Of a DNA stretch of 64,000 bases, positions 9,246 to 63,388 are shown in pieces (positions within the stretch are counted from its first letter, which is position 1; each line of letters opens with the position of its first letter). Origin of the DNA: Bryopsis sp. KO-2023. Taxonomy: Eukaryota > Chlorophyta > Ulvophyceae > Bryopsidales > Bryopsidaceae. The notes under the pieces are model-generated. The model saw nothing but the letters and a program-made list of their open reading frames with translations. It did not search any database and had not been told where the DNA came from. Where the stretch lies: positions 3,534,001 through 3,598,000 of the forward strand of contig BSYQ01000001.1 of the NCBI GenBank assembly GCA_030272585.1. The letters are read 5' to 3'. The position numbers and the translations under genes are program-made.

Positions 9246-10100
9246 TCAACAAAACTTCCATCGGTTATTGCATGCCGTGCACGTCACGAAAGTCGTCATA
9301 GGCTCGTCGGCCGACCTGGTCTGCATCTGATAATAGGTACACTGTCTCCGCTTACATCTGCCGCATTGGAATTGGTCGGTCGTGGCTTGCGTCGTTTGAC
9401 CCCGTTTGCACTCTTCCAGTTTCTTTTTTTTGATTTCCTGCGTTTCGGACCGCTTTTCGTCGTTGGCGAGCTCCTCCGATGGTAGCGTCACCAAAACCTC
9501 CCCGGAAACCTCCCCTTGCAAGATCCGTCGTCGAAGTCCACTGTTTTTCACGTCCTTAAGATTGAACATCAAACTCCGGACCTTGGTTTTGTAGGATGGA
9601 CCCATGCCCGGGTGCTGCTTGAACACGGCAACCTCGATTTCCGCTCCAACCCGGTTCGGGTCACCCCCGAACTTTTGGTGATCAACCAGCAACGCATTGG
9701 CCAAACCAGATCGAACTTTATCCCGCAGGGGGTTCCCTAATTTTTTTAGCTCGCTGAACTCCATTTTTACTTCTCCCGCGCTCTCGCGCCCAGTGAGCTC
9801 GGCGGAACCTTTGGACTCAATCCCTTTCTCTTTCCGCTCCTTGAGTTTCTTTTTCCACGACTGGACGACCTCGCCAGCTGCAGCCGCAACTCGGGCATCC
9901 TTGTGTTTGCTGAGCTTTCTGAGTTTTTTGCCTGCTTCCGTCTCCGTGAGCAGGTCCACGGTGACCTCCTGGTCCAGCAACTTTTTCAACCCATCCAATA
10001 CCCGCTCCACTTCACCCCCCCCCTCAGCTTTCTCCACCTCGCCAGCTGAAACGCTCACTGTCCGCACGAGCTTAACAAAATCCGCTTTGTCAACCGCCAT
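9246..10100 (-). CDS. Transcription elongation factor TFIIS
   Basis: An intact, intronless 284-residue protein. TFIIS enters the RNA polymerase II funnel and stimulates cleavage of backtracked transcripts. All three parts are visible: an N-terminal LW/TFIIS-N helical bundle (about 1-85), the central polymerase-binding domain (about 112-235, with RDKVRSGLANAL at its start) and the C-terminal zinc ribbon (244-284). The ribbon has two CxxC pairs (CGRC, CTAC) and the catalytic hairpin RSADEPMTTF with Asp-Glu at about 265-266. The protein ends right after the ribbon, as in other TFIIS proteins. The length is typical. It is the only intronless gene of conserved function in the window. The start ATG at 10100 gives a complete N-terminal domain. 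Confidence 0.96.
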   Translation of the reverse strand: MAVDKADFVKLVRTVSVSAGEVEKAEGGGEVERVLDGLKKLLDQEVTVDLLTETEAGKKLRKLSKHKDARVAAAAGEVVQSWKKKLKERKEKGIESKGSAELTGRESAGEVKMEFSELKKLGNPLRDKVRSGLANALLVDHQKFGGDPNRVGAEIEVAVFKQHPGMGPSYKTKVRSLMFNLKDVKNSGLRRRILQGEVSGEVLVTLPSEELANDEKRSETQEIKKKKLEECKRGQTTQATTDQFQCGRCKRRQCTYYQMQTRSADEPMTTFVTCTACNNRWKFC

Positions 10101-11677
10101 CAGTGCGGACTGCGCTCTCTATCCACCTTGTGGCCGCCTTTGCTCCGACACGAACGAAACTCTCACAGACGCAAACCTGGATTAAATAGGCGGAGCTTTA
10201 TCGCCAGCAATGACAACTGTCGCCAGATCCTCGTCTGACTCTCGATCCCACCCCACATCGTGGACTTCCATGTCAAAGATCGCGCACCTGTGTGTGTGTT
10301 TGACGATCATGTGGTAAGTTTGCGTGCATGGACTCCCTTCACGTTGCTCCCGTGTACGTTTCGTAACTTTCAATCGAACGTGGGGATGTTTGGAAAGACG
10401 GCAGCTAATATATGAGTGCTGCCCGCGTCTCCCTGTAGAATCTTGCTGACTATTGGATCGCGAATGAGGTTGGCTGCGCTCAAAAACGCTGCGTGATTAT
10501 ATGGGTTTTGACCCGTTGCAACCCTTCGCGCGCGCGTCTTGAATAAGGCAGCATAGAAAAAAGCACAGGACTTTTTTTATTGAAAAAAAAAGAGTACGAT
10601 CGACTTGGTGACGTTTGGGTGATAGGTAGCAGAGGATGTACAGTGCAGTAACCTGAATCCTTGAGTATACTTTTTCAGACACCCTTTCTGCAGATCAGTT
10701 TCCATGGCAGTGGATGGGGACATTCTGACCTAGACCTGAGTTGCCTCCTTGTGTGTGTGATCAGACTTTAAAAACCAGCAGCGAAAAAAAGAGCAGCACA
10801 TTGCTGGCGTTGTGGAGGAATTACATCGATCAGGAAGAGGGCCTGGTTTCGGAAGCCCTGTATCGAATCTTGTCGCCGAAAAACAGAAGCGACATCGTTC
10901 GTGGCGTCCACATTCCATCAATAAAATCTTACTCCTCGTTGTGTAACAGGCACCGTGAACTGGTCGACCCCACCTTCCCGAGACGGATTTCTGTACGTGT
11001 GGGCGTGTGGATGGAAACAAGCTGACAACATCATATCAATTGCGGCCGGAACCTGTCACCCATGGCCACGTGAACCGTGATGCGGAATGATTGGTGTTGG
11101 TATTTGATTCTGCACCGCTACTTTTGGTGGCACGGATGTACATCACAAATCGACAAAAGATCACACAGTGATGTGACACTCCGACGAAAGCCGGCGTTCC
11201 ACGTCCAATCCCCTCTCGGTATTACAGCATTAACATTTCTTTCGTTCAGCAGTGTGTGTGGGAAGCAACAGTTGAGTTGGAATTTCCGGCTCGTGGAAAA
11301 CTCAGGTCAGTGGCGACACACGACCTATCTTGCGGTTTACGATGCGGTCGCAGTCTCGCTGACTAGCATTGTACTTCGGGCAGAGGTGCTGGTCGGGGAC
11401 TGTCAGCGCAATGCGTCGGTTGGGAGTCAAACTCGTTTTTTCGTTTCGTCTTTTTTTTTTTCTGCGAATGACATGCTACGGGTGTTTTTGTTCTTTTTTC
11501 GTGGGGGTACGAAAAACATGACGATGAGAATGCCAAACACCACATGACCGTCGTGCGTTAGAGCGTGGAATGGGAGGTTTATTCTTGTGGTGTGTCCCAG
11601 ATTTCGACAGGAGCAAGGCAGATTTTTGTGGGCGAGAAAAAGGAACAAAATAATTTGTGTCACGGGCGGACGAGGTC
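10101..11677. promoter_or_regulatory. Divergent intergenic region, TFIIS and AP2/B3 gene
   Basis: 1577 bp between the start codons of two divergently transcribed genes, so it must hold both promoters and 5' untranslated regions. Several short open frames occur on both strands (for example 10741-11025 and 11077-11547, plus) but none shows a domain or a convincing splice chain. I see no TATA motif I would trust. Confidence 0.45.
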
Positions 11678-20200: not shown

Positions 20201-21791
20201 AAGAATAAGTGTGATTGATAGTGCTTGGATTCGATCAAACGGAATTTCGTTTTTCCCATTAGGACGGGAGGTGCTGCGTTCATCAAATGGGGCCAGTGGT
20301 CGGCATCCAGAGAAGATCTCTTCCCTCCTGAATTCTGCGATGCCCTTTCTCAGCTGCACGACCAGGCTCCTGTTCATTCCATAAAGGAAACAAGGGATGC
20401 TATCCATCATGCTTTTGGAATCCCTTTGGAGGAGATATTCGAATCCTTCGAGGATGAGCCGCTGGCTTCTGGAAGCATCGCACAGGTGAACAATCGCCTC
20501 TATTTATTTCCCCACCTTCAATTCTCCTCGTTTCTATGTCAAAAACAACTGTTTTGTGTCTCTTTTGTCAGAAAGGGGGGGGGGGTGGAGGGATGTCCAC
20601 CATTGATTTCATATAATGAAAGAGGATTCACCATCGGAACAGAGTTCTGAGAGGAAGATTGAGTTTGCTGCAGGTACATCGAGCCACCCTCTGTCGATCT
20701 GGCCGCTCTATGCCTGTCATCGTCAAAGTTTGTCACCCTGGAGTCGCAAAAAACATTCACCAAGATTTCCAGGTTTTGAAGCCATTGGCTGCCTGGGCAT
20801 CCAACATCCCCTTGCTTCGAGGGCTGCCCTTGAAGGAATCGGTGTCGCAGTTTTCCCACACGATGACCGCCCAAGCCGACCTGCGTGTGGAGGCAGTTCA
20901 CATTCGCCGGATGTTCAATAATTTCAAGCGACATGGGGATTCGATAGTGATACCCGCTTTGGTGGACGAGTTGATTTCTGAGTCTGTCATCGTGGAGAGT
21001 TTCGAAGCAGGCAGGAGCGTGACGCATTACATCAAGAACCCCAGCCCGTTGAACACGAGAATCGTGGCCCTCGGTGTGGATGCCTATTTGAAAATGCTGC
21101 TGTCGGACAACGTGGTGCACACCGATTTGCACCCTGGTAACATTTTGGTCAGGGAAGTGGAGAAACCCGATGGGTCGAGCAGTTTGCAGATGATCTTGTT
21201 GGATTTCGGGTTGGTGGAGGAGCTCATGCCGAACGTGCGGAAGCATTTCATTTCGTTTCTCAACATGATCAGCAAGGGTGAGTTGTCATCTGAAAAAGGT
21301 CCCCGATAATTTCTTCATTACATACTCCATCAGTTTTTTCCCCTCGATGCCTTGTGTCATACATACCAGCTTAAGAATCGAGATCTGCAGAACCTCAATT
21401 TCTGCCGATCAGCAATTCACACAAGTCGGTGTGGTGTGGAGCAGGGGATGGGGAAAATGCTGCCCAGCATTTCCTTCACTGGAGCGATGATCAACAGTGC
21501 CCCGACCCCGAGGCTTTCGTGCAAGACATGGTGGCATTGTTCGAGGAGCACTGTGACGTACAGTCGCCCGAGGGAATCGACCTGGACAAAGTGATCAAAT
21601 CGATCCTGCTGCTGTCCAGAAATCATCGAGTGAGCATCGACAGCAGTTATGCAGCCATGGTGGTTGGTGTCTGTATTATTGTTGGTTTTGCGACAGGGCT
21701 GGACCCCAGAGTGAATCTGATGGATGCAGCGACGCCCGTTCTTTTGACTTATGCATTGACGGGGAGAGTAGTGGGAAGGATGTATGGATAA
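17255..21791 (+). CDS. ABC1/UbiB-family atypical kinase, ADCK2-like
   Basis: Nine exons chain in phase: 17255-17394, 17481-17524, 17706-17816, 18185-18531, 18808-18983, 19264-20040, 20263-20485, 20674-21277, 21445-21791 (922 residues). The last four carry the ABC1 kinase: AAFIKWGQWSASREDLFP (KxGQ motif), the Ala-rich loop LASGSIAQ, the Lys strand PVIVKVCHPG, catalytic HTDLHPGN and LLDFGLVEEL. The C-terminal strand RHRVS-like segment and FATGLDPRVNLMDAA resemble ADCK2. Such proteins support ubiquinone or prenyl-quinone metabolism in mitochondria or plastids. A hydrophobic stretch (RLFFIFMPVVLFGGIVLVL) precedes the kinase, as in ADCK2. The first five exons encode a hydrophobic region I do not recognise plus a motif, AWLDTHKKAAQRVAHLM, that resembles the pre-KxGQ helix of other ABC1 proteins. 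These could be a separate gene; the kinase part is secure, the upstream linkage less so. Confidence 0.75.
17841..17863. repeat. ATTG tetranucleotide repeat
   Basis: About five to six ATTG units inside the third intron of the ABC1-kinase gene, followed by about 150 bp of very AT-rich intron sequence. Confidence 0.85.
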
Positions 21792-24485
21792 CCCAGCATT
21801 CATAATTTGTGATAATAGAGATTGAAAGAAACGATGCGGTGGGCCAAAGAAAGAGCCTCTTTGGTGTGAATGCATCACCCTGAGAAGATATGTTGAATGT
21901 TTGACCGGAGAGAAGATATTATTGCTTAGCGAGGGGGATCGAGGGATTTTTAGGGGGAGAAAAAAAGGATTGTACTTTGGTCACAGAATTGGGCTTTTGG
22001 GGACGCAGTTTCAGGAGAACTGCAGATTTCATTTGTGGCACGGTAGTTCTTCTTACATTTATTTGCCTGGTTTTGGTTAAGCGAGGTTTTAGGGCTCCTG
22101 CCTGTGTGTATGATTGAGGAATGTAGAAATTCAAAGTTGGTAGCTTTCTCGGACTGGTTTTAGGGCTATGCTGCTGTGGAAAGGAATCAGTCGTACGGAG
22201 GAGAGTTGGGGCAGCAGTTTTCCAAATCCGTTTTGTGTTCGTGTGCGAGCCAGTCAATCATGCTTCCTACCGACACCTTGATCTTTGCAGAGCTCATGCA
22301 AGTCACAATGTGTGTGTTACTATATTTTGGACACAGCAAACTTCCAACTGATGACACCAAATTTTATTCAAAGACAGAAAAAAAGGGAACTGAGGAATGT
22401 GCGTGTTGAAATGAATGGATTCCGGTTATCCCTAAACCCTCAATCTATCACAGTCCCCGAAAAGCCAACAAAAACCACAAACATCGATACACATTTTTCG
22501 AATCACCAAAGTCAAGAAATTGTTGGGTATTGCATCAAGAAACATGGTGTTTGCTTACCTACTGATTTTTATCCAGTCAGTGATCGCCATTCTCCCCGTG
22601 TTTCATCCAAAAACTACTGGACAATTAATGTGGGGTCATTGTGCACTTGAAACATCAAATATCATCTGCTCACCACTGCATCACTACATCTTGAATGCAA
22701 ATATTGCTCTGACAGAAAAAACTGAAAAATGAAGTGTCTTGATGGAAACGAAAGCAGCGCCATGAGGGTTTTGTGGTTCTCTGTGCTGTTGATTTGATCT
22801 TGGGTGTTTGAGAAGAAAACCAGCATTGAGTCGAACCATGTATTTGTCCCCAATATGGACACTGGCTTGAGGAGAGCCCGGCAGATGATGTATGCAAGAT
22901 AACCATCATAAAGTCCACCTGCCATGTTGCAATCGAACGAGAGAGAAAAACACTTAAGGAGGACTGCACATCTCTGTTTTGTGGTAGATAAAAGCATGTT
23001 GAGACAGCTTCAGGAATGGGTGCTGGGTTTTGAGCTAATAACATACCATTTTTGAACATGATTTTTCCACTTGGATACACCCTCTGCCACCTTCATAAGT
23101 CTCATCAAAGAAAGATGAAGCTTCCCTCTTTACCTTTCATCGGAAAAAACAAAAGCATGTGCTTGAAGCAGCCGACATTCCAAACGCCGGCCGAAAGGGA
23201 ACCTTTGCAAGACATGTTAGCTTTGAATGAGAAAACTGTATTTCATTCAGCAGACCTCTATTGGATGCAGTAACTTCGACTCCAGAGATGTTCAGATCTT
23301 ACTTGAATGCCCCCCTTGCCCAGATGTTCTTTGCGAACAAACATTGCCCCTCCTTGAATGCATGCTGCAGAAGTCCCTGGAACGATTGCTTCAATGCAAG
23401 TTGAAAAAAGTTGAAGGATCCCCCTGATTGAGGAATCTGCTGGCCAGTAACACTGTCCATATATACTTGAGAACTTGAAATAAAATACACCTGATGACTT
23501 GAAGGTGAATCATGTGTTTCAAAATGAACTTGAAACTGGTTGAAAACTGCAGAGGGTGACCCAAACTGCATTCTTGAAAAATGCCCAAGCAAATAAAAGT
23601 GTTCATTGAAAAAACTCATTGGATGCTGGGCCCTTGAGGGTTGAAACTGAAGTTGAGAAAGAGGACAACACGCGTTGGTTGAAATGCAACTTGAAGAATA
23701 AATTGGAATTGAAATGCAGGTTCAATAAAGCGATTATTGAAAAAGAAACTTGCAGAATGCTGGTTGAAGAAAACATTGGGGTGAAAAATAAGGCAATGCT
23801 CATCTGGAAACCACAGTTGATGGGGTGTCATACTCACACCTCTCTCTCTCGGCTCCTCAATCCTCCTGCTTGTCCCGCCCGCTTTCCTCTTGATGTTGCT
23901 GAGGTATTCCTCCGAAGCATTTTTCTTTTCTTTTCTTTTCTTTTCTTTTCTTTTCTTTTCTTTTCTTTTCTTTTCTTTTCTTTTCTTTTCTTTTCTTTTC
24001 TTTTCTTTTCTTTTCTTTCTTTCTTTTCTTTCTTTTTTTTTTTTTTATGAGGTCAACTCTTTGGACATCCTCCTTTCCTCCTACCTTCTCTTCATCTCCC
24101 TGACCTTCTCCGGGATATCTTTCGATTCTCCGTCCTGTTCTCGGTGATATCTTCGTTTTTGCTGGAATTTTTTCTTTCCTTTCTTGCACCCTCAAGTCTG
24201 TCCCACACACTTCCTTCTTTTCCTTGATCTCCTTCCAAGTCTTTTTTTTTAATGGACTGCTCCTGTCCTCACCCACCCCGCTCGTCCCGCCCATTTTATC
24301 CCTTCGCTTTTGCTGCTGAGGCATTCCTCCAAAGCCGTCCTCCTCTCGATGTCTGCATTTTCTTAGGACATCCTCCTTTCCTCTTTCTCCAGGCATCCTT
24401 CACCAAAGCATCCCCCACTCCAGACAATTGTTTTCAAGTTTTTATCCACCTCCACCACCATATCCTTCACTCTAGCCAGATTTTG
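21792..24485. other. Intergenic stretch, no gene recognised
   Basis: 2.7 kb between the convergent ABC1-kinase gene and the acidic coiled-coil gene. Short open frames occur on both strands, none with a domain. From about 23400 to 23780 the plus strand is dense in TTGAA-type words and reads as a charged peptide (frame from 23619), which may be a decayed or partial coding segment. The right part holds a CTTTT microsatellite flanked by two degenerate copies of a pyrimidine-rich segment (about 23862-23922 and 24275-24345). The Lys-rich minus-strand frame 23857-24396 is produced by the microsatellite. Confidence 0.5.
23921..24047. repeat. CTTTT microsatellite
   Basis: About eighteen to nineteen TTTTC units from 23921 to about 24016, then degenerate CTTT units and a run of T to 24047. 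It is purely pyrimidine on the plus strand and could adopt a triplex-type structure. Confidence 0.92.
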
Positions 24486-26360
24486 TTACGCTTCCTCATC
24501 CTCCTCCTGCACCAAATCCACCTCCGGTCCATCCATAATTTGCCTCATCTCCTCCTCCCCCAGCACTCCAGTCATCCACTCATCCACTGCAGCCAAATAG
24601 TTTTCCACTTGTTCATCCACCGACTCCCCCTCCACTCTACCCAGAATTGGCCTCAGATACTCACCCACTACATCCAAAAAGTTTTCCTCATCCTCATTCA
24701 CCGACTCCACCTCCGGTCCATCCAGAACTTCCTCGTCCGCTGCAGCTGAATAGTTTTCCTCATCCTCATTCACCAACTCCCTCTCCACCATAATTCGCCT
24801 CCGCTCCTCCACCTCCATTGATCTGCTCAGACTTTGCCTCAGCTCCTCATCCACGGCAGCCAAAAAGCTTTCATCATCCTCATCCACCAAATCCCCCTCC
24901 GCCAGAAATCGCCTCAGCTCCTCCTCATCCACCACTCCGCTCAGACGCTGCCTCAGCTCCTCATCCACTGCAGCCAAAAAGTTTTCCTCATCCTCATTCA
25001 CCAAATCCACCTCCGATCCATCCATAATTTGCCTCACCTCCTCCTCCCCCAGCACTCCGGTCATCCACTCATCCACTGCAGCAAAATAGTTTTCCACTTG
25101 CTCATCCACTGACTCCCCCTCCACTCTACCCAGAATTGGCCTCAGATACTCACCCACTAAAGCCGAAAAGTTTTCCTCATCCTCATCCACCAACTCCACC
25201 TCCGGTCCATCCAGAACTTCCTCATCCGTTGCAGCCGAATAGTTTTCCTCATCCTCATTCACCAACTCCACCTCCGATCCATCCAGACTTTTTTCCGCTT
25301 CCTCCTCCTCCTCCAACAGAACATCCTCCACTGCTGTCAGGTTTTCTTCCATTTCCTCTGCATTTTCCTGCCCCACTGCAGCTTGGCTTTCTTCCACTTC
25401 CTCTGCATGTTCTTCCACCAAACCATCCTCCACCACAGCCAGTTTTTCTTCCACTTCCACTTTCACTGCATTTTCCTCCTCCACCAAAGAATCCTTCACT
25501 CCAGCCAGATTTTTTTCCACTTCCTCTGCATCTTCTTCCACCAAAACATCCTCCACAGCAGCCATATTTTCTTCCACTTCCACTGCAGTTTCCTCCTCCA
25601 CCAAAACATCCTCCACTGCATCCAGATTTTCTTCCACTTCCACTGCAGTTTCCTCCTCCACCAAAGAATCCTTCAGTCCAGCCAGATTTTTTTCGGCTTC
25701 CTCACGATGAAGCTTTTCCAAGGCCAGTTCCTCCTCTTTTTTTTCCAATTCTTTTTTCATGTCTTCCAAATCTGCCCTTGCTGACCTGAGCCTGCCTTTT
25801 CTTCCTTTCAGCGCCTTTCTCATGTCCTTCATTTCCTCCCTTGCCACAGACAGCTTCTCCTTCATTTCAACTGCACCTTTCTTTTTTTCCTCCAAATCTG
25901 CCTCTGCCGACCTGAGCTTCCTCCTGGTTTCCACCAACTCTGCCTTCACAATACCCAGTTCCTTTTTTGCTTTCCTGGTATTTTTTTCCTCTTTTTCCAG
26001 CTCCGCTACCACTTTTTCCCTCTCCTCCACCTCTTTTGAAATTCTCACCGTCTTCCGATGCAAGCAAGTTTTTGCTGCCTTCATTTGAACTCTTCTCTTT
26101 CTTTTTTCTCGCTGTCGTTCGCGCTCCACCTCACCCAAGCCCGTCGTCGTCAAGCACAACCACCAAACCAACACAAATACCAACCCGACCAAGGCCAGAA
26201 AAAAGAAGGGAAGCATGCTGTCGCCGCCATTCGCCAAGGTTGTGCTCCGCTCAACGTTTTCGCCTGTCGTCGCCTGGATATTATTCGTGCAAGTCATAGC
26301 ATCTGGTAAAAAATACGTCAAAATATTTTTCGCCAAGTTCGTAAGTGCCTGAGTCGCCAT
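24486..26360 (-). CDS. Acidic, repeat-built single-pass membrane coiled-coil protein
   Basis: A single open exon of 624 residues counted from the ATG at 26360, chosen for its good context (AAATGG) and because upstream sequence is a minisatellite. I do not recognise the family. A lone membrane segment, MLPFFFLALVGLVFVLVWWL, lies at about 48-67, so the short N-terminus and the long C-terminal part face opposite sides of a membrane. A basic stretch follows it, then coiled coil (about 95-235), then several copies of a Glu/Val-rich unit built around VEEN...AVEDVLVEEE, then two long copies of a block containing GEYLRPILGRVEGESVDEQV, 163 codons apart. The C-terminal half is strongly acidic. It could be an organelle-tethering or scaffold protein; that is a guess. 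No introns are needed, and the frame is intact in spite of the repeats. Confidence 0.65.
   Translation of the reverse strand: MATQALTNLAKNILTYFLPDAMTCTNNIQATTGENVERSTTLANGGDSMLPFFFLALVGLVFVLVWWLCLTTTGLGEVERERQREKRKRRVQMKAAKTCLHRKTVRISKEVEEREKVVAELEKEEKNTRKAKKELGIVKAELVETRRKLRSAEADLEEKKKGAVEMKEKLSVAREEMKDMRKALKGRKGRLRSARADLEDMKKELEKKEEELALEKLHREEAEKNLAGLKDSLVEEETAVEVEENLDAVEDVLVEEETAVEVEENMAAVEDVLVEEDAEEVEKNLAGVKDSLVEEENAVKVEVEEKLAVVEDGLVEEHAEEVEESQAAVGQENAEEMEENLTAVEDVLLEEEEEAEKSLDGSEVELVNEDEENYSAATDEEVLDGPEVELVDEDEENFSALVGEYLRPILGRVEGESVDEQVENYFAAVDEWMTGVLGEEEVRQIMDGSEVDLVNEDEENFLAAVDEELRQRLSGVVDEEELRRFLAEGDLVDEDDESFLAAVDEELRQSLSRSMEVEERRRIMVERELVNEDEENYSAAADEEVLDGPEVESVNEDEENFLDVVGEYLRPILGRVEGESVDEQVENYLAAVDEWMTGVLGEEEMRQIMDGPEVDLVQEEDEEA
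24505..25225. repeat. Intragenic direct duplication, 489-bp spacing
   Basis: A block of roughly 220-240 bp occurs twice in direct orientation within the acidic coiled-coil gene (about 24505-24735 and 24995-25225), offset by 489 bp, an exact multiple of three. The intervening sequence carries further diverged copies of the LVNEDEENF-type unit. The copies differ by scattered substitutions, and the frame is kept. Confidence 0.85.
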
Positions 26361-28812: not shown

Positions 28813-31214
28813 ATGGACGGAACGGTCAGCCAAGAACCCATAGACCCCGAAGTGCCGGATGACGGCGAGGACACGTGCGGTTGATCTTTTCCATTGATGC
28901 CAATTCGAATCGTTCCATGCATTCCTAGATCACATGACCAAAAGTGCTGTGTTCTGATTGAAAAGTATGCCCTTGTAGTGATTCTCAGCAAGATTTTGAA
29001 GCTTTTGAGCGAGAATACCAGGCAGATCATTCGTGGGAACAACTTGCAGAAGATGAGGATGGCCGATTGCTTCCAGTGGTACGAAGATTGTTTCATTCAG
29101 CTGTTGGGAGCCTGATGTTGGCTTCCTGGAGTGTTTTGTGCCTGTCTGAATGCAGCAATCCACCTTTTGGTCTTGCATCTGTTAAGGTCCCCCATCTATG
29201 AATAGATAATGAATTGTGGCTGCCGCACTGCAGGATACTGCAAGAGAACAGCGGGCCAAAAGGAGGATGCTATTGGAGCAGCACAAGGGTGCCAGAATTC
29301 GGAAAGGGATGATTCGGTACATGCAAGTGGTGTGTGTGCATCACTCCCCTCAACATACAGACAATCACTTCATCATGTGTCTCTTTTTGGGAGTTCTTTG
29401 TTCGTTTTTTATTTTGATCCAATTCGGCGTAAAATCTGTGGTGCAGGTGATGGATGTTTCGAGTGCTGCTGCTGTGGTCGATCTGAAGCCCAATCGCTTC
29501 ACCGTGATGGTGAGTCTGTTGAAAACTTTTGTGAGGGAGTTTTTCGATCAGAATCCTTTGAGCCAGCTGGGAATCCTGTTGATGAAGAACGGCCAAGCAG
29601 AGAAGCTCAGCGAGCTGTCAGCAAGTCCGGTAGGGTCCCGATGTTTTTTCATTACGCCCAAAAAATTGATCTCTAAAAAAGCCGCTCGAAGAGGGGTGGT
29701 GATCCATCGACTGAGCTACCCACAATGCTCTGCCCAAATGGAATTCAGCATTCTTGATTGTTGCGGCTTTTTCAATTGGTAATCTCTGTTTGACTTCATA
29801 CATCTTCATATGATATTTCCACACGTCCATGGGGAGAAGCGTTGATAAATTTTTTTTTCAACCGTCTGTGATGCAGGAATATCTTCTCAAACGTTTAGGG
29901 GGGAACGTGGATTTGGAAGGCTGCGTTTCGCTTCAGAATGGCCTAAACCTGGCATTGGAATCTCTCAAGACCGTGCCCACCCATGGCCATCGGGAAATCG
30001 TTTGCTTGATGGCAGCGCTCAATAGTTGCGATCCAGGGGACATCCGGCAAACCATCAAGGAGCTGAAGGTTGGGTTTCGTGATCGAGACACTGTTTAAAT
30101 ATGTGGAGGAGACGTGTTGCTGTTGTGATGTGATTGGCAAGCTGGGCCACCTCTATGCACATGAATCTATGGTGTCCATCTGGGTCAGAAAAAATTGCAT
30201 CAAAGGATTAGTCAACCAGACCCCAGCTGCCAGTACTGATCTAGACTTTAAGCTGTGGTGGAAATCAAAGATCGGTGTGTCACGATGACTGGAAGGGTTC
30301 ACTGAGATGATTTCATGGCTCGAAATGCAGAAGGAGCGCGTGCGAGTGTCCTTCATTGGCCTGGCGGCCGAGGTGTTTGTTTGCAAGAGCATTGCTGAAG
30401 AGACTGGAGGGCCATATCATGTTGCATCGACAGAAAAGCATTTGGAAGACACTCTGATTGGACTCGTCCCACCACCTCCTGCACCTGCAAGGGCAACACA
30501 AGCCACACTGGCAAGTGCCAGTCTGACGTCAATTTCGCACTGTTACCTACTCAAGGCTCAAGATTTCTGTGAATTTCGGGATGTACCAGTCTTTATCTGC
30601 TGCTGAGTTGGGTGCAGATAGAACCTTTTATTGGCTGCAAGTTTTGTAGCAATCTCCCACAGTACTTTTGCCTTTGGGAGCTGTTTTCCCTTGAATATCA
30701 AGATCATTTTCTAGTGGATACTGTTTTACAGGTGCGCATGGGCTTTCCAGAGAAGAATCCGGATGGTCCCAAGGGGTTTGCATTCACTGGGGAAGACAGC
30801 CAAATCTTGGATGGGGGGTACACCTGCAATCGATGCAAAGCTCGGGTCAGGGATCTTCCTTGTGAATGCCATGTTTGTGGATTGGCACTGGTATCATCTC
30901 CCCACATCGCCCGGGCTTATCACCATCTCTTCCCTGTTGACCCATTCGATGAGGTCTCCCAGGACGATGAGCATTTGATGGCCGACAGAGACAGAATGGA
31001 ATGCGTGGAGAGGGAAGAGGAGGCCAATTGTTGCTTTGGCTGTTTTGCGAATCTCTGGGACCAAGCGGGGGTGGTGTTGCAGTGCAAGCACTGCCGTAAT
31101 TTGTTTTGTTTCGAGTGCGATTCATACATTCACAGCAGTTTGCACAACTGCCCTGGGTGTGAGTGTGGGGCAATGCAGAAAGGGGATGAAAACGGAGACT
31201 CGATAGAGCAGTAG
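28813..31214 (+). CDS. GTF2H2: TFIIH subunit p44/Ssl1 (GTF2H2)
   Basis: Seven exons (28813-28851, 28989-29078, 29234-29329, 29447-29629, 29877-30068, 30331-30510, 30732-31214) give 420 residues, the usual length. p44 binds and stimulates the XPD helicase in TFIIH, for transcription initiation and nucleotide excision repair. Visible marks: FEREYQADHSWEQLAEDEDG near the N-terminus, the Ssl1-type VWA domain (about 70-260) with FDQNPLSQLGIL and HGHREI...CDPGDI, MGFPEKNPDG after it, then the C-terminal zinc modules, a C4 finger (CNRC...CHVC) with SSPHIARAYHHLFP, and the RING-like CFGC...CKHC...CFEC...CPGC. The end of exon 1 is uncertain: a donor at 28880 with an acceptor four bases further in would add an acidic stretch. 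The intron 30511-30731 starts with GC rather than GT. Confidence 0.95.
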
Positions 31215-38119: not shown

Positions 38120-41100
38120 ATGCGTGGAACGAAAAGCTCGACTGTTTTGCAAGTCGCGTACATTGTCGCTCTTTTGCTGAGAAACTTTGGGGAAGCGAGT
38201 GGCGATCGTGCTACCATAAGCGCGAGAGAAATCGTCGAGATTGTGTCAGAAGCGACCAGAGCTCAGCATGTGTCCAGGGCGTCCCTCGTCAAACAATGCC
38301 AGTGCTCGCTGCACGCTTGTTCCAACGACATGAACCAAGACGGGCACCAGTGCACTCTGGAACTGGGCGACAACGAGATGTGCCTCTGCAGCGAAGGCAT
38401 GAAGGTTAGGAGGCATTTCAGAGAGTGCAGGGTGACGGAGTTTCGTTTCGTCGACGTGTCGAACGGGAATTCTTTCCCCTCTCACTCTATTTTCGTTCCG
38501 TCGTTGAGTATCAAACGAGGTCGACGCCTCATCGCGCAGCTGTCCTGATGGTTGTCGTCTGTCGACAACCGCCCCGCGGTTCAGAAAGTGCGACGAAAAA
38601 GTTGGGACGCCAATCTTGCGTTTCTCTGTCGTGCACGAAAAATATCTGTTCCCTTGTGTGATCTGTTTTGCAGTTGAACCTCAACAGGAGCTACGTTCGG
38701 ACTCCTCCCGGCGTCGACCCAAACGATTTGCCTCCACACATCACCCAATCGGTGTGCCTATATCAGGTGTAGAATTCGTCCGAGATATGACCAGTATAGG
38801 TGATGAGTAAGAAGGAATGGCAGCGCGTCCGTAATCGCACGTGCGGGCTTGGATTCGAATTCTTCTCCCACTTCGCTGTGTGACATAATTCAACCGTTTA
38901 AAGGAGTTGAGAGTTCAGGCACTGTGGAGGTTGAAGATGGGTGTGTGGTTGCACAGGGACTAGATTCTGTTTTTCGTGACATTGGGGCAGAGAAGGGGTT
39001 CCAAACATGGACATATTTTGGCAGCATGGCTGGAATCATGCGGTAATGAACTCTCTCTCTCTCTCGCTCCTTTGTGGAATGTGAAATCTTGATAATTGCA
39101 ATTGTAGAACTGATCATTGAAGCTGAGTTCGTTCCATCAAAGTCAGTCTGAGTTCTGTTGAGACATGATGCCGAAAAAAAGAAGAAAAGGTCTACCAGCT
39201 CTCACCCTTTTTTTTTCCGCCTGCAGAATATGGCCCGGAAAACCCAGAAGGAGGGGGCTAACGGATGGAAGTTTCGATCCACAACTGGGGAATTGCAGAA
39301 CTTATGAGCCGGTGAGGATTATCTTGTGCTGCTTCGTGTCGAATGCACATTTGTAGATGCCCCTTATTCATAAATTCTTATTGTATTTGTTTTTTCAGCG
39401 ATTAAGGCCATGGTTCATCGCTGCCGTCACCAGTGGAGGGCCGAAAGATGTGGTCATACTCCTTGATGTTTCGGGTGAGGCTGATCAATTCTTTTCCTTT
39501 CCATTCTTCCCCCTTCGCCAATCATCTCCAACCACAACATTCATATAAGTGATAAACGATGTGTGGTTTGGGGGACGAAATGATGATGTGTCCGTTACAG
39601 AAACGATGGGGTCGCCTGCCGGTCAGTCAACGAGGCTGTCCATTGCGAAGCTGTTGGTGGAGAACATTTTGGAGTTCATGACGATCGCTGACCACATATC
39701 CATTCTCCCTTTTGGAAGGAAAACTAATGCTCTGGTGGCTGACTACCTTCTGAAAGCCACGCCATCCCTGAGGGCCAATCTGGTGGCTGCCATGAATAAT
39801 TTAGAGGCCAGGGGAAGAAGTAATGTTTCCGATGCGTTCTCGGAAGCTTTCAAAATTTTGCTCAAATCAGTGGACCTGGAGAAAACCGCAAATTGCCAAA
39901 CGGTAAAAGAAAATACTAATGAAAAAAAAGACATCAAAAGGTGTAACCGACATAACACACATATTCTGAACTTTAATGTTTTCTTCCACTTTCAAAATAC
40001 TTAACTGTATATTAAAGAATTGTGATGGTTTCGACTGAGGCTATCTGAGCAAGGGTGGTTTGCATCTTTTTTCACTTTTTTTTTTCTCTTCCCATCAGGT
40101 CATCATCCTCGTTTCAGATGGGCACAATTGTGAAAATCCTATTGATGGGGTCTGCGGAGACGGTTTGAGCGAGGTTGCAAAAATCCGAGGAGAGATCGAG
40201 AATGGGCAGAAATCGCTGGACAAAGCAAACACCGAAAGAGCATCCATCTTCACCTTTTCGATCGGACAAGATTCGCACAACGCCTTGGAAAGGCGAATCG
40301 CATGCGATAATGGTGGAACCTGGTCAGAAGTTACAGGTACCAGGGGTCTCCAGCGTTTTTAAATTCTCAGTTTCCATTATGGAGCTTTTTTCCCCTTTCG
40401 GTTTGGTTTTCTCGGGGGGCGGGGACGAGAGAGACACTGATCTTTCATTTTTTTTTATTTGTTTATATTTTTTAATTTAATTTAATTTTTTTTGTGTGTG
40501 TGTGATTCGGTTTCTTTAGGCACTGATGATATTTTACACAAGCTCCAACTGTACATCAGTTTCTTGGCATCCCGTCGAAAAGGAGACAGCATAGTCTGGA
40601 GCAGCTTCTATGAGGATGACAGTGGCCTCGGGAGGATGACCACCGCAACCCAATCCATTTTCAGTTTCGACCGTTCAGCAGGTCTCAGAGGGCAGCTGGT
40701 GGGAGTGGTCGGCCACGATGTGCTGGTTTCGCAGCTGGGAGATTCAGGATTCTCGTACCTGTCTGTCTTGGGGACAGTGACTGGGAGGCTGGGAACCTGC
40801 ACAGTGCAGAATATGACCACCTGCGAAATGCAGGTATTTCCGAGAGTCGATGTAAAATTAATGGCGGAAAAATGAGCTGGAAAAGCGTTGATACAAGATA
40901 ATGCCCTCCATAATGGTTGGGTGTGAAGTTCAGGCCGTCACCACCGGACGAATGACACTCTCTAGTTGATTTGGTAGTCAAATCTTAGTTTCAACAATAG
41001 CGATCAGCAGAAAAAGTGTGAATGAATCCCTCGTTTCAGACCTCATTTTTTTTCTCCTGTTTTTTGCACCACCAGGTGCTACGAGGCATGGAAGATCAAT

Positions 41101-41828
41101 GTCCAGAAATTTTGTCAAAAAGTTGTCATAAATTGGAGGCGACCGCACATACTTATTACTCTTCAGCAAACAAAAGACTCAGCCAAGGAGATGCAGTCGA
41201 AGAGTGCAAGTCTTTAGGAGGATATTTGATTGAGCTGGATTCCGAGGAGGAGCTGAGCTTTGCCAGTGGACTGGCCGATGATGGAGGTTCTTGGATCGGT
41301 CTGGAGTCTGACTTGGGCGGAGTGTGGAAATGGCAAGCCAGTGGGAAGGAAATCGGCTTGGGAAAGTTTTGGGCACCGGGGTATCAAGACAGGGATGGAT
41401 TTTGCGCTTCGATCGATTCACGGGGAACCATGAAAACAGGCCAAAGGAGGCTGTGCGATGTGAGGTTGCCCTACATCTGCGAATTCGATTCCATGGGGAA
41501 AGCGGGGAAAGTGTGCAGAGCTGATGAAGTGAATAAAATTGGGCCGGACGATGATGCTGAGGTTCCATCGCTGTTAAAGTGTTTACGGGAGAATGGGCTG
41601 GAAGAGGAGGTGGAAAAGCAGGCGATCTTGGAGAATCATGTCGGTGGGGTGGAGGATAGAGCTGTGTGCGGTTTAGGCCCACCGAGGAAAACCGAGGAGT
41701 TGCTGTGTTGTAAAGATTGTCCCAATCGTCCGGAGGGCTCTTCCGAATCGAGCAGCCCGAGCAGCAGTGTGGTGTTGCTTTCGTTATTGGTTTTGAATAT
41801 GGCGATCACCTTTTTCTTCCTTACTTGA
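38120..41828 (+). CDS. Secreted VWA-Cache-C-type lectin protein with GPI-type tail
   Basis: Nine exons join in phase (38120-38404, 38674-38766, 38957-39042, 39227-39311, 39399-39474, 39601-39902, 40099-40336, 40520-40833, 41076-41828) to give 743 residues. A signal peptide (about 1-26) leads to a cysteine-bearing N-terminal part, then the segment TWTYFGSMAGIMRIWPG and RPWFIAAVTSGGPKDVVILL. That order is the Cache/VWA junction of calcium-channel alpha2-delta and CACHD1-type proteins. The VWA domain covers about 195-385, and a second Cache-like part about 389-493 (SIVWSSFYEDDSGLGRMTTA). A C-type lectin-like domain follows (about 518-630) with four expected cysteines (about 537, 603, 620, 628) and WIGLESDLGGVWKW. 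The end is Ser-rich, then hydrophobic to the last residue, as in GPI-anchor signals. The MIDAS motif reads DVSGE, not DxSxS. Likely a cell-surface or flagellar adhesion or sensing protein; the ligand is unknown. Confidence 0.88.
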
Positions 41829-55401: not shown

Positions 55402-56337
55402 TCAGTAATACCCTGGGGGGGGTGCACCTGGATAAGGCACCGGAGCTTGTGGAATGAAAGCTGGAGGAGGTGGAGGAAAACTTTGAACACCAGGCATTGG
55501 AAATGGATACTGCATGGGCGGGGGTGGAGGTGGGGCTCCATGGGCATTATACAAAGTGTAGCCGTGGAGAATCGACAAGCTCGGGGGAGGACCTCCCGGG
55601 ACTTCCCTGGGTGGATTGTCGCGAATCTGCCTGCACACGATGACCAGTGCGGCTTTCAGCTGCTCCGCTTGACCCGATATTAACACCACGCGGTCGTTGT
55701 GCAAGGCGCACACGGGGATGTCTTCCTGAGGCAGGATTTTGCAGAACGCCCCGGTGCTTTCTCGAATATCTTTCGTGATGCAACCCCCCTTGCCGATAAT
55801 GGATCCCGCCTGGGTGTGGTTCACCAACAACCGAGTGAGCATGTTGAAGGTCTTCCCTGACTGCTCCCTGCTTTCCACTTCCGCATCCACAACACGTCTG
55901 TGAACCTCCGCCAGCGCCCGTTGCGCCTGGTTGGTGTCGTCCGGGGTGGCATCTCGGGCCGAAATCACGATGACCCGCTCGTCGCAATTCGGCACGCCCT
56001 CGCACACACGGATCCTAGCTTTCGTCGCGTTTCGTATTTCCCTCACAATCGCCCCAGCCTTTCCAATCACCGCGCCAACTCTAGTGGCAGGCACCAGCAG
56101 CCTGAACACGGTGTCGCGATCCTGCGGCTGTTGCTGCCTTTTGAATTCCCGTCCTCCAGTTCCTTCGCCTTCATACGGTCTCTTGCGGTCGCCGACAGCT
56201 GCCCCATTTTCGCCGCTTCCGTTGGTTGCGCCGAAAGAATAACCTTCCCGAGGTTGAACGTCAGCAACCGCAGCCGAAGAGAATTGCTGCGCTGGTGGCT
56301 GCTGTTGCTGCTGCTGTTGTTGCTGATAAGGGTACAT
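55402..56337 (-). CDS. Two-KH-domain RNA-binding protein
   Basis: An uninterrupted 311-residue frame from the ATG at 56337. A splice acceptor (TTTCAG, near 56352) just upstream and a donor near 56459 suggest an intron in the 5' leader, which is why I do not use the GTG/CTG-initiated extension. After a glutamine run (about 5-13) come two KH domains, about 76-150 and 166-240, with GxxG loops GKAG (92-95) and GKGG (182-185). The tail (about 245-311) is almost all Pro, Gly, Ala, Tyr and Phe. It resembles plant PCBP/PEPPER-type proteins, which bind C-rich or U-rich RNA in splicing, 3'-end choice or stability, but usually have three KH domains; here there are two. Probably nuclear or shuttling. Confidence 0.9.
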   Translation of the reverse strand: MYPYQQQQQQQQQPPAQQFSSAAVADVQPREGYSFGATNGSGENGAAVGDRKRPYEGEGTGGREFKRQQQPQDRDTVFRLLVPATRVGAVIGKAGAIVREIRNATKARIRVCEGVPNCDERVIVISARDATPDDTNQAQRALAEVHRRVVDAEVESREQSGKTFNMLTRLLVNHTQAGSIIGKGGCITKDIRESTGAFCKILPQEDIPVCALHNDRVVLISGQAEQLKAALVIVCRQIRDNPPREVPGGPPPSLSILHGYTLYNAHGAPPPPPPMQYPFPMPGVQSFPPPPPAFIPQAPVPYPGAPPPGYY

Positions 56338-56774
56338 CCTTCCACCGCTGAAACAAGAACTGCCCAACCAAAGTGAACGCACAGAAAGGCTGGCGAAATG
56401 TGTAGAGAACGGGGGTTGGGGCTTCTTGGAAGAGAATCACCCCGTCAGACGGAGTCGTACCTGCCACGTCAGACGCACCATTTCCGACACACAAAAAAAA
56501 AAATCAATTTCGGGCCCGATTTGGCGTCAATTTTTGAACCTGCGCCACCTCTACGGGGTTGAACGAAGAACTCCACAAAAAAACACAACTCCATCGCAGC
56601 CCTTTCTCTGTTCGTCTTGCTGAAATCTGGGACTGGGCATTCAACGTCGAACCTGACGTCTGGGTGTTCTCGTACAAAGTGCATGCAGTCGCACCTATAT
56701 GTTGATGCGTAACCTTTCACCATTCAACACCTAAACGCGATTTCTTCAGCAGCAACACGCGCGCCCAAACTTCA
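56338..56774. promoter_or_regulatory. Divergent region, KH and Tudor genes
   Basis: 437 bp between divergent start codons, also containing the probable 5'-leader intron of the KH gene (about 56352-56459). No core promoter motif is obvious. Confidence 0.5.
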
Positions 56775-61044: not shown

Positions 61045-61657
61045 TCTGTCATTGTTCATAGGACTGGTTCGTTAGTAGGATACTGAAAAGGCATCAGAAC
61101 TGTACAGAACTGGTCCTAGGCTAGCTTAAGTAAGCTCAACCATGTACCATCCATTCATAATTGTAATCACAACCAGCTGGAGATCCAGTCTCGGAATTCT
61201 CCTTTTCCAAGATTATGTAAAACCGTTGCACGATTCTGTCATTGACCATGCGAACGGTCCAATGAAATTGTGAATACTCGATCTTATCGATGAAGGATAA
61301 AGTATTCCTTTTCTTGGCATTGGTTTCGCCGAGTCGGCTATATATATAGCTTCTGTCGGTGTTGGCGCACACGAAAAGGAACTCGAAGAGATACCCCAAG
61401 GTGGCGGCGGTACCTCCCAAGGTACGGTACGGATACGTACTGACACTACGACACGCTGGATCTCACGTGGATGTCGAGCGACTACTTATCCTACCTTCGT
61501 GTCGGAACGCTACTCCTCCATCCGGAGAGAGGTTTTGACGCTTGAGGTTTCATAACCCCCACGTCCTGATCAAATACCCGCTTTTTTGCGCTCATCACGA
61601 TTTCAACAGGTCTTTCAACGAGCGGCAAAATTCTTTGGTGAGCTGAAGAGGGACAAG
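61045..61657. other. Intergenic with a TATA-like palindrome
   Basis: About 610 bp between the Tudor-like stop and the kinase start. The palindrome CTATATATATAG at 61338-61349 is the best TATA-like word and could serve the kinase gene (about 310 bp before its ATG, with a 5'-leader intron ending near 61612) or a minus-strand transcript. A minus-strand open frame (61136-61420) has no ATG that would give a sizeable protein; it could be a last exon of an unseen gene, without recognisable domain. Confidence 0.4.
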
Positions 61658-63388
61658 ATGCCGTTCTGCGGTTTCAGGAGATTTATTGTAATCTGCGGAC
61701 CTGTGGGCGAAGCGGGATGGAGGCCTCACCGACAGGGGTTCGAGGGTACCAGACCTCGGAGCACCTCGGTAGACTCGCCGCGACAGTCCACGTCACTGGC
61801 TGGGCAGGGGGTTGCCCGGTGCGAATCCCCCACCCCTCTCCTTGCAGCGCGCGAAATGACTCCTGCCAACCTCAACAACGCCATGAGTTTGCCTTGGGAG
61901 GCTTTTGAGCACGCCACGTTCGTGGAAACCCTCCCTACTGTAACGACGAAGGCCGGTTTCGATGAGAATTCGGTTTTCTGTGCTTACGACTTCTGCGAGA
62001 AGGTTGGGAGCGGTACGTACGGAACGGTTTACACTGCTGTGGAGAAGAGCACCGGCCGTCGCGTGGCGGTGAAAGAAATCGGCTCAGGTCAAAAAACAGG
62101 CAGGAACAAGAGCAGTGGGTGCAACATGGCCCGGCAGGAGGCCCGCATCATGGAGGCCCTGCAGGATTGCTCCTCGGTGGTCGGGTTCAAGCATTGCTTT
62201 CAGGGGGATGGGAAGAAAAAATACTCCTATATTGTCATGGAGCTGTGCGGTGGCGGTGATCTGGAACATTTCACTGAGGTGAGTTTTATGAATGTTGTTG
62301 ATCCAAGAGATCTCTTGGATCAATCCCTAAGCATGATCCAATATCTATATGCTTAGATGTTAATCTGGACATTAGTCATCGATATCAACACATTGTGTTA
62401 CTTAAAAATGCGTACGATGTTTTAGGGCAAGTTTTGAAATGCAAATCGGGTGCAGCAGTTTGAAAGATGTTGGTATTTTGTTGCAGGAGAATGGTCCTAT
62501 CATGGAGGGGCAGGCTGGTGTTGTGGCATTCGAAGCTCTGAACATGCTGCGAAGCTGCCACCAGAAGAGGATACTCCACGGAGATGTCAAGCCTGCTAAT
62601 TTCATGATCCACTCTGAAATTCAGCACCAAATCTTCAAACACGGCCCGACTCGGTTACTGCGGCCTGGTTGGCTCAAAGGCATCGATTTCGGGACCTGCC
62701 AGCAGCTTGGTGAGCATCTGCTTTGCTCCCCTACCCACCTTCCCAACACAAAACACAGTCGAGAATTTAACTACAATTTAACTGAAAACATACTCCTGAG
62801 TGCTGCAGTTGAAGGCTGCCACAGGTCTATTTCCAAGACAGAGATTTTAGAATTTTTTATTTTATTTTATTTGTTTTTTTCAAGATCTAAAAGAATAATG
62901 TGATTGCATCAGTCTCTTCTGCTGAAAGATGAAATGATTGGCTCCTGTATTTGTTGTATACAGGCTACGGGGGAGTTACGAAACGGGTTGGGACACCGAC
63001 CCACTGGTCTCCTGAGGTTTTCGGCGGCCACTACTACACGGAGGCCGACATGTGGAGTCTCGGCGTCCTGGTCTACGAGCTGATGGCCGGCCGAAATCCT
63101 TTCTTCACGAAGGATGAGGAACGGGCGATGCGGAGTTCGACCGAGATTCTCAGGGCCGTCATGCAGAGGAAGCCAGACTTCAGCTACGGACCTTGGTTGG
63201 AGTGCAGTCCACAGGGGATTGACTTCATCAAAGGTCTGCTGACGCTCGATCCACGAGTGAGAATGAAGGCGTGCGAAGGACTGCAGCATCCCTGGGTGAA
63301 AATGCATCAAACTTGGAGGAAAAAGGAGAGGCCTTTCTTTCAGGGGAAACCTGTTGAACTCGACACGTTCATCCCGTGCTTTGCATGA
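61658..63388 (+). CDS. CDPK-like Ser/Thr protein kinase without EF-hands
   Basis: Three exons join in phase (61658-62278, 62487-62709, 62964-63388) to give 422 residues. The kinase domain (about 110-400) is complete: glycine loop VGSGTYGTVYTAVE, VAVKEI (the ATP-binding Lys), hinge VMELCGGGDLEHF, catalytic loop HGDVKPANFMI, DFGTC, activation-segment GTPTHWSPEVF, ADMWSLGVLVYELMAGRNPF and LTLDPRVRMKACEGLQHPWV. It resembles plant and algal calcium-dependent and CaM-dependent kinases, but the protein stops about 25 residues after the kinase domain, leaving no room for EF-hands. The catalytic loop has Gly where RD kinases have Arg. The N-terminal 110 residues are basic and Ser-rich and may be a targeting region. 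The ATG at 61658 is the first in frame; a leader intron probably ends just upstream. Confidence 0.92.

Follow-up and report, generated by a model that had tools for sequence, protein, structure and literature searches.

A predicted surface protein with a VWA-split Cache and a C-type lectin-like domain in the green alga Bryopsis, and its putative receptor-kinase siblings

The window analyzed here, a stretch of 64,000 nucleotides from the green alga Bryopsis sp. KO-2023, contains a gene for a predicted surface protein in which a Cache domain, split by a VWA domain, is followed by a C-type lectin-like domain (CTLD). Judged from sequence, the explanation that we tentatively prefer is that this protein is a GPI-anchored, ectodomain-only sibling of a family of receptor kinases that senses a small extracellular ligand. 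It appears to belong to a receptor family that has not been described before.

The gene extends from an ATG at 38120 to a stop codon at 41826-41828 and has nine exons (38120-41828) separated by GT-AG introns. Splicing was read from the frame, the splice sites and homology, and on these we take the gene and its nine-exon frame to be genuine. A first model of 758 residues, with the acceptor of exon 3 at 38912, was dropped in favor of 38957 because it adds 15 residues lacking in all nine paralogs; the acceptor at 38956/38957 cuts these residues in frame and leaves a protein of 743 residues that is collinear with the paralogs. The order of parts is signal peptide, Cys-rich module, Cache split by VWA, CTLD, second Cys-rich module, Ser-rich linker and hydrophobic tail. 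The domain order proposed in an earlier note on this DNA was thus recovered within a single frame, at these positions:

38120..38404, plus strand: exon 1 (residues 1-95), with a signal peptide at about residues 1-26 (hydrophobicity) and a Cys-rich module (C60, C62, C67, C78, C88)
38674..38766, plus strand: exon 2 (residues 96-126), where the N-terminal half of the Cache begins; the introns on both sides are common to the kinase gene C13a (see below)
38957..39042, plus strand: exon 3, start corrected by paralog alignment, Cache N-terminal half
39227..39311, plus strand: exon 4, Cache N-terminal half, closing with Y181-E-P of the ligand motif
39399..39474, plus strand: exon 5, with R186, W188 and F189 of the Cache ligand motif; the VWA begins, with MIDAS positions D206 and S208
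39601..39902, plus strand: exon 6, VWA, MIDAS positions T210 and S282
40099..40336, plus strand: exon 7, VWA, MIDAS position D316
40520..40833, plus strand: exon 8, Cache C-terminal half, ligand-motif Y419 and D455
41076..41828, plus strand: exon 9, CTLD, C-terminal Cys-rich module, Ser-rich linker, hydrophobic tail and stop
41178..41486, plus strand: CTLD (Pfam Lectin_C)
41502..41723, plus strand: C-terminal Cys-rich module (C640, C662, C691, C704, C705)
41724..41825, plus strand: Ser-rich linker and terminal hydrophobic tail, putatively of the GPI-signal type (hydropathy)

Of the 52 neighboring open frames, 20 were scanned with Pfam, and among those 20 no link to the gene was seen. The features around it are:

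9249-10118, minus strand: TFIIS
20620-21306, plus strand: ABC1-type kinase
30573-31211, plus strand: TFIIH C1-like
55405-56436, minus strand: KH domains
61556-62353, plus strand: protein-kinase exon

Positions 24001-26000 of the window have a GC skew of -0.59; the minus strand there holds a 782-residue open frame that is biased in composition and has no Pfam match at 1e-4.

The genome searched comprises 91,088,769 bases in 28 contigs. It is that of a plastid-bearing organism, with rbcL on contig 28 (91,672 bases), in agreement with the green-alga host that had been proposed from the window alone. At least nine collinear paralogs of the window gene were found (C5a-c, C6a-d, C7 and C8), and 23 cysteine columns are common to the window protein and these nine. 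Pfam matched VWA and Lectin_C in all eight family members scanned; for the first, 758-residue model of the window protein the values were E 4.9e-12 (VWA_2) and E 4.6e-12 (Lectin_C). There are 13 ectodomain loci altogether, and three of them have kinase exons.

These three loci (L037, L038 and L039) lie on contig C13, at C13:1208053-1214678 (C13a) and near 1.238-1.246 and 1.311-1.317 Mb, and carry exons for VWA, Cache, Cys-rich module, CTLD, membrane helix and kinase. A reading of them as lectin-only genes proved wrong when the further ectodomain and kinase exons were found. The C13a model, with splice sites chosen by hand, has 12 exons whose phases all agree and encodes 1066 residues in one open frame, with a membrane helix, judged by eye, between ectodomain and kinase. 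Pfam identifies Pkinase (E 3.7e-34) and Lectin_C (E 1.1e-6) in this protein, and no VWA at 0.01. A query with C13a lacking its last 54 residues matched most of the C13a exons, the kinase among them, at each of the three loci. It missed some of the short exons that encode the Cache N-terminal half, though a family profile finds the region of the RPW exon in all three. As read, the C13a kinase keeps the glycine loop, the lysine, HLD and DFG, and HLD in place of HRD would presumably make it a non-RD kinase. It matched no solved structure at E 1e-20, and a search with the C13 kinases (E 1e-3) was negative for the window and for the stretches around the other paralogs, C7 included. The window gene itself lacks the combination of transmembrane helix and kinase, its frame stopping after the tail, and the kinase exon 20 kb further on is unrelated.

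Introns 1, 2, 3, 4, 5, 6 and 8 of the window gene coincide in alignment column and phase with introns of C13a; only intron 7 differs. In 200,000 random placements of introns at most 3 coincidences arose, as against the 7 observed, a test weakened by the choice of C13a splice sites with the window model in hand, though the frames themselves allow little choice. Only one intron, that preceding the CTLD, is shared between the window gene and the C5, C6, C7 and C8 genes. The columns and phases shared with C13a argue that the window gene retains the structure of the kinase gene; the intron-poor copies probably lost seven introns. A gain of seven introns by the window gene was dropped as an explanation because the same seven occur in C13a. 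We also set aside the idea that its introns are mobile introners, since intron 1, the one searched, has no other copy in the genome. In the C5, C6 and C8 paralogs (L029-L035) Cache and VWA lie in one exon and a phase-1 intron falls within the CTLD, the opposite of the arrangement in the window gene. The C8 model (C8:2431288-2434519, L029) includes a GC-AG intron, and its C-terminus is provisional.

The best solved relative of the window protein is alpha2delta-1, with E about 5e-23 over residues 140-474 of the 758-residue model and 2e-38 by profile. (The profile searches of Pfam families, viral contigs, prokaryotes and solved structures used an alignment of eight of the ten sequences, without C5a and C5b and with C8 cut at its C-terminus.) According to the available portion of PMC9901441, the first dCache_1 of alpha2delta-1 is split by the VWA, and its amino-acid motif consists of Y, R, W and Y before the VWA and Y and D after it. 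The window protein has this defining feature, a VWA inserted into the first dCache_1. Relatives also occur in Asgard archaea, where 18 of 148 genomes match at 1e-20 and in six of these the match, judged from its span, covers the VWA as well as the two Cache halves; prokaryote genomes hold at least 15 relatives, and the three best among the matches listed are Asgard. One of these archaeal proteins (L050; 595 residues) has a VWA above the Pfam cut-off, a dCache_1 below it (E 6e-9) and a hydrophobic stretch at its C-terminus. Its VWA interrupts the Cache at the position seen in the window protein, as does that of a second one with an interrupted frame (L048); unlike the window protein, L050 possesses the membrane-proximal part of the Cache, ends in a hydrophobic helix and lacks a CTLD. 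At both archaeal loci a VWA-less dCache gene adjoins the VWA-split one. Among viral contigs, 79 stretches fit a pattern and none is a relative.

The window protein has no match to any of the Pfam Cache families, and single-sequence searches with the Cache halves were weak (N-terminal half E 0.036; C-terminal half, no alpha2delta match). When the VWA was removed and the halves were joined, however, they aligned unbroken to a VWA-less Asgard dCache with an hhalign probability of 96.8 (E 2.2e-10), as against 0.1-0.4 for five column-shuffled controls; the test is partly non-independent, its target adjoining a gene found with the family's own alignment. The N-terminal half alone scored 96.2 against this target and the C-terminal half alone 7.9, and the latter reached 96.4 against the VWA-bearing neighbor. 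The earlier note had seen a Cache/VWA followed by a Cache. Both pieces are present, but they are better described as halves of a single Cache interrupted by the VWA, because the protein is collinear with alpha2delta and the halves align across the VWA junction to an uninterrupted archaeal dCache.

The residues at the ligand-motif positions are Y181, R186, W188, F189, Y419 and D455, five of six identical to alpha2delta, with F189 replacing Tyr. This assignment uses a partly assumed spacing of the alpha2delta ligand residues. L050 has six of the six. Over 11 copies (the ten ectodomain genes and C13a), which are related by descent so that the counts are not independent, the Arg and the Trp are found in all 11 and the Asp in ten, C7 having Glu; Tyr or Phe occupies position 181 in 11 of 11 and position 419 in 10 of 11. 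Two observations lead us to favor ligand sensing: every copy keeps the Arg and Trp of the Cache, and the same ectodomain occurs in association with kinases. The MIDAS of the window VWA (D206, S208, T210, S282, D316) has oxygen-bearing residues at all five positions, with two conservative changes from the metal-ligand set DxSxS, T, D.

The CTLD has six conserved cysteines, namely the four canonical ones that had been claimed for it (C537, C603, C620, C628) and the pair C502/C510, together with a WIGL stretch. Sugar-binding CTLDs carry EPN/QPD and WND motifs. The window CTLD has neither, reading YQDRDGFC and KTGQRRLC at those places; C6a, C6b and C6c read EPH, EPY and EPH at the EPN/QPD place. 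We accordingly call the domain a CTLD and regard lectin activity as putative. A structure model of exon 9 (mean pLDDT 39) was uninformative on its fold.

It is unlikely, in our estimate, that the protein acts instead in adhesion or recognition (gamete contact, protoplast re-aggregation or pathogen recognition), with CTLD and VWA as the active parts and the Cache as a structural one. Oxygen-bearing residues at the five MIDAS positions in 8 of 11 copies, the window's included, would suit such a role, as would the restriction of all 12 Lectin_C matches in the genome (E 0.001) to this family, the CTLD of C7 not being among the 12. The available part of PMC8226300 counts over 30 SRCR/CTL genes in Chlamydomonas, with possible roles in immunity or chemoreception, and Bryopsis protoplasts regenerate after wounding (PMC3252328, available part). 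The CTLD, however, lacks the canonical EPN/QPD-WND sugar site, and some of the MIDAS oxygens are lost in three of the 11 copies (C7, C8 and C13a), all of which keep the Cache Arg and Trp. The adhesion, mating and flagellar roles put forward in the earlier note are not supported in that form; of the relatives modeled, the one that shares the introns is a receptor kinase, which points toward ligand sensing.

The kinship with alpha2delta raises the further alternative, improbable in our view, of an auxiliary calcium-channel subunit that acts like alpha2delta through a contact between VWA and channel. The genome does encode a four-repeat calcium-channel homolog at C1:4105400-4111947 on the minus strand (L063), with four ion-transport repeats and, as read, a glutamate in each pore loop. 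Its best solved matches are calcium channels, T-type first (one 804-residue frame as query), and T-type channels are not known to need alpha2delta. Two more four-repeat clusters lie at C6:5.37 Mb and C1:7.17 Mb. The 13 ectodomain loci, three of them with kinase exons, compare with three four-repeat clusters as read; the accessory role proposed in the earlier note is not supported in the form given there. Like alpha2delta (CACNA2D) and CACHD1, the window protein has a VWA-split Cache, the ligand residues and a VWA that is putatively of MIDAS type, and like alpha2delta it ends in a hydrophobic tail. Unlike them, it has one Cache subdomain, the membrane-proximal one being absent, and the CTLD follows directly. 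A second dCache_1 is absent: 46 residues separate D455 from C502, the first CTLD cysteine, and the alpha2delta match stops just past D455. No VGCC_alpha2 domain (PF08473) was found in the window protein; a search of the whole genome at E 0.001 was also negative, though the control genomes gave no match either. VWA_N (PF08399) likewise had no match in the genome at this threshold or in 14 control genomes. The protein is also shorter, at 743 residues versus about 1100. The alpha2-delta/CACHD1 layout suggested earlier therefore holds for the VWA/Cache core and not for the remainder; with no second Cache pair and no VGCC_alpha2 domain, the sequence argues that the window protein is not an alpha2delta subunit.

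The hydrophobic tail of the window protein has a best 15-residue stretch of hydropathy 2.51, followed by 4 residues and no basic stop-transfer. An N-terminal signal combined with such a tail is, by hydropathy, the pattern of a GPI-type protein. C5a, C5b and C5c, like the window protein, end 0-5 residues past a 15-residue stretch whose hydropathy averages 2.1-2.8. In C6d, 14 residues follow the hydrophobic stretch. C7 (C7:1967789-1971252, L036) resembles a type I membrane protein because its stretch is followed by 27 residues that include RIKRRMR. In C6a, C6b, C6c and C8 the value does not exceed 1.1, and these genes may have more 3' exons. GAA1 gave four exon matches in the genome. The window protein is probably secreted and membrane-anchored at the cell surface; of the GPI-type tail claimed earlier, secretion and probable anchorage stand, and the GPI attachment is plausible from tail hydropathy and the GAA1 matches.

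On our preferred reading, that of an ectodomain-only sibling of receptor kinases, the sensor module would be secreted and held on the outside of the plasma membrane by a C-terminal GPI anchor. The VWA-split Cache would bind a small ligand, presumably of amino-acid type, in a pocket like that of alpha2delta and bacterial chemoreceptors, and the VWA and CTLD may serve as contact modules for protein or glycan. Having no cytoplasmic part, the protein would signal through a partner. The best candidates, by homology, are the three C13 receptor kinases with the same ectodomain, much as receptor-like proteins work alongside receptor-like kinases. A soluble or membrane-bound decoy, sequestering the ligand of the C13 kinases and so weakening their signaling, would likewise have the same ectodomain without a kinase, and in C6a, C6b and C6c the last modeled exon encodes no hydrophobic tail. 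These three may have further 3' exons, however, and nothing here separates a decoy from a co-receptor; we think this role very improbable.

The proposed co-receptor resembles plant RLKs and RLPs, C-type lectin RLKs among them, in that ectodomain-membrane-kinase proteins occur beside ectodomain-only siblings, with the CTLD outside. It differs from them in its VWA-split Cache ectodomain, which is not among the features described in the available accounts of those proteins, and the window protein has no kinase. Chlamydomonas SRCR/C-type-lectin proteins are alike in being chlorophyte proteins with a CTLD; in the portion available, no Cache or VWA is mentioned for them. In 2016 the available text of PMC4822843 described metazoan Cache as mostly confined to alpha2delta, and Cache of plants and fungi as confined to histidine kinases; its occurrence in archaea and eukaryotes was read as transfer. 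According to the accessible part of PMC6362431, the sampled chlorophytes yielded no lectin receptor kinases, C-type lectins possibly lying outside its domain set, and PMC10868138, in the part available, lists one C-Lec receptor kinase in Chlamydomonas. A full-text literature search, which covered main texts and few subscription papers, turned up no paper describing the window architecture; this is weak evidence of novelty.

It is possible, if doubtful, that siphonous green algae have a receptor system of their own, in which an alpha2delta-like VWA-split Cache of archaeal age, combined with a CTLD, is deployed in receptor kinases and in lipid-anchored co-receptors. A gabapentin-type amino-acid pocket would then serve kinase signaling outside animals, independently of calcium channels. 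Here the VWA-split Cache forms a surface family that has expanded in a green alga; it has Asgard relatives and occurs together with a protein kinase in three loci. If the proposal is true, the alpha2delta core would be an old ligand sensor that animals tied to channels later, and the ligands of such receptors could be sought in a giant single-celled alga.
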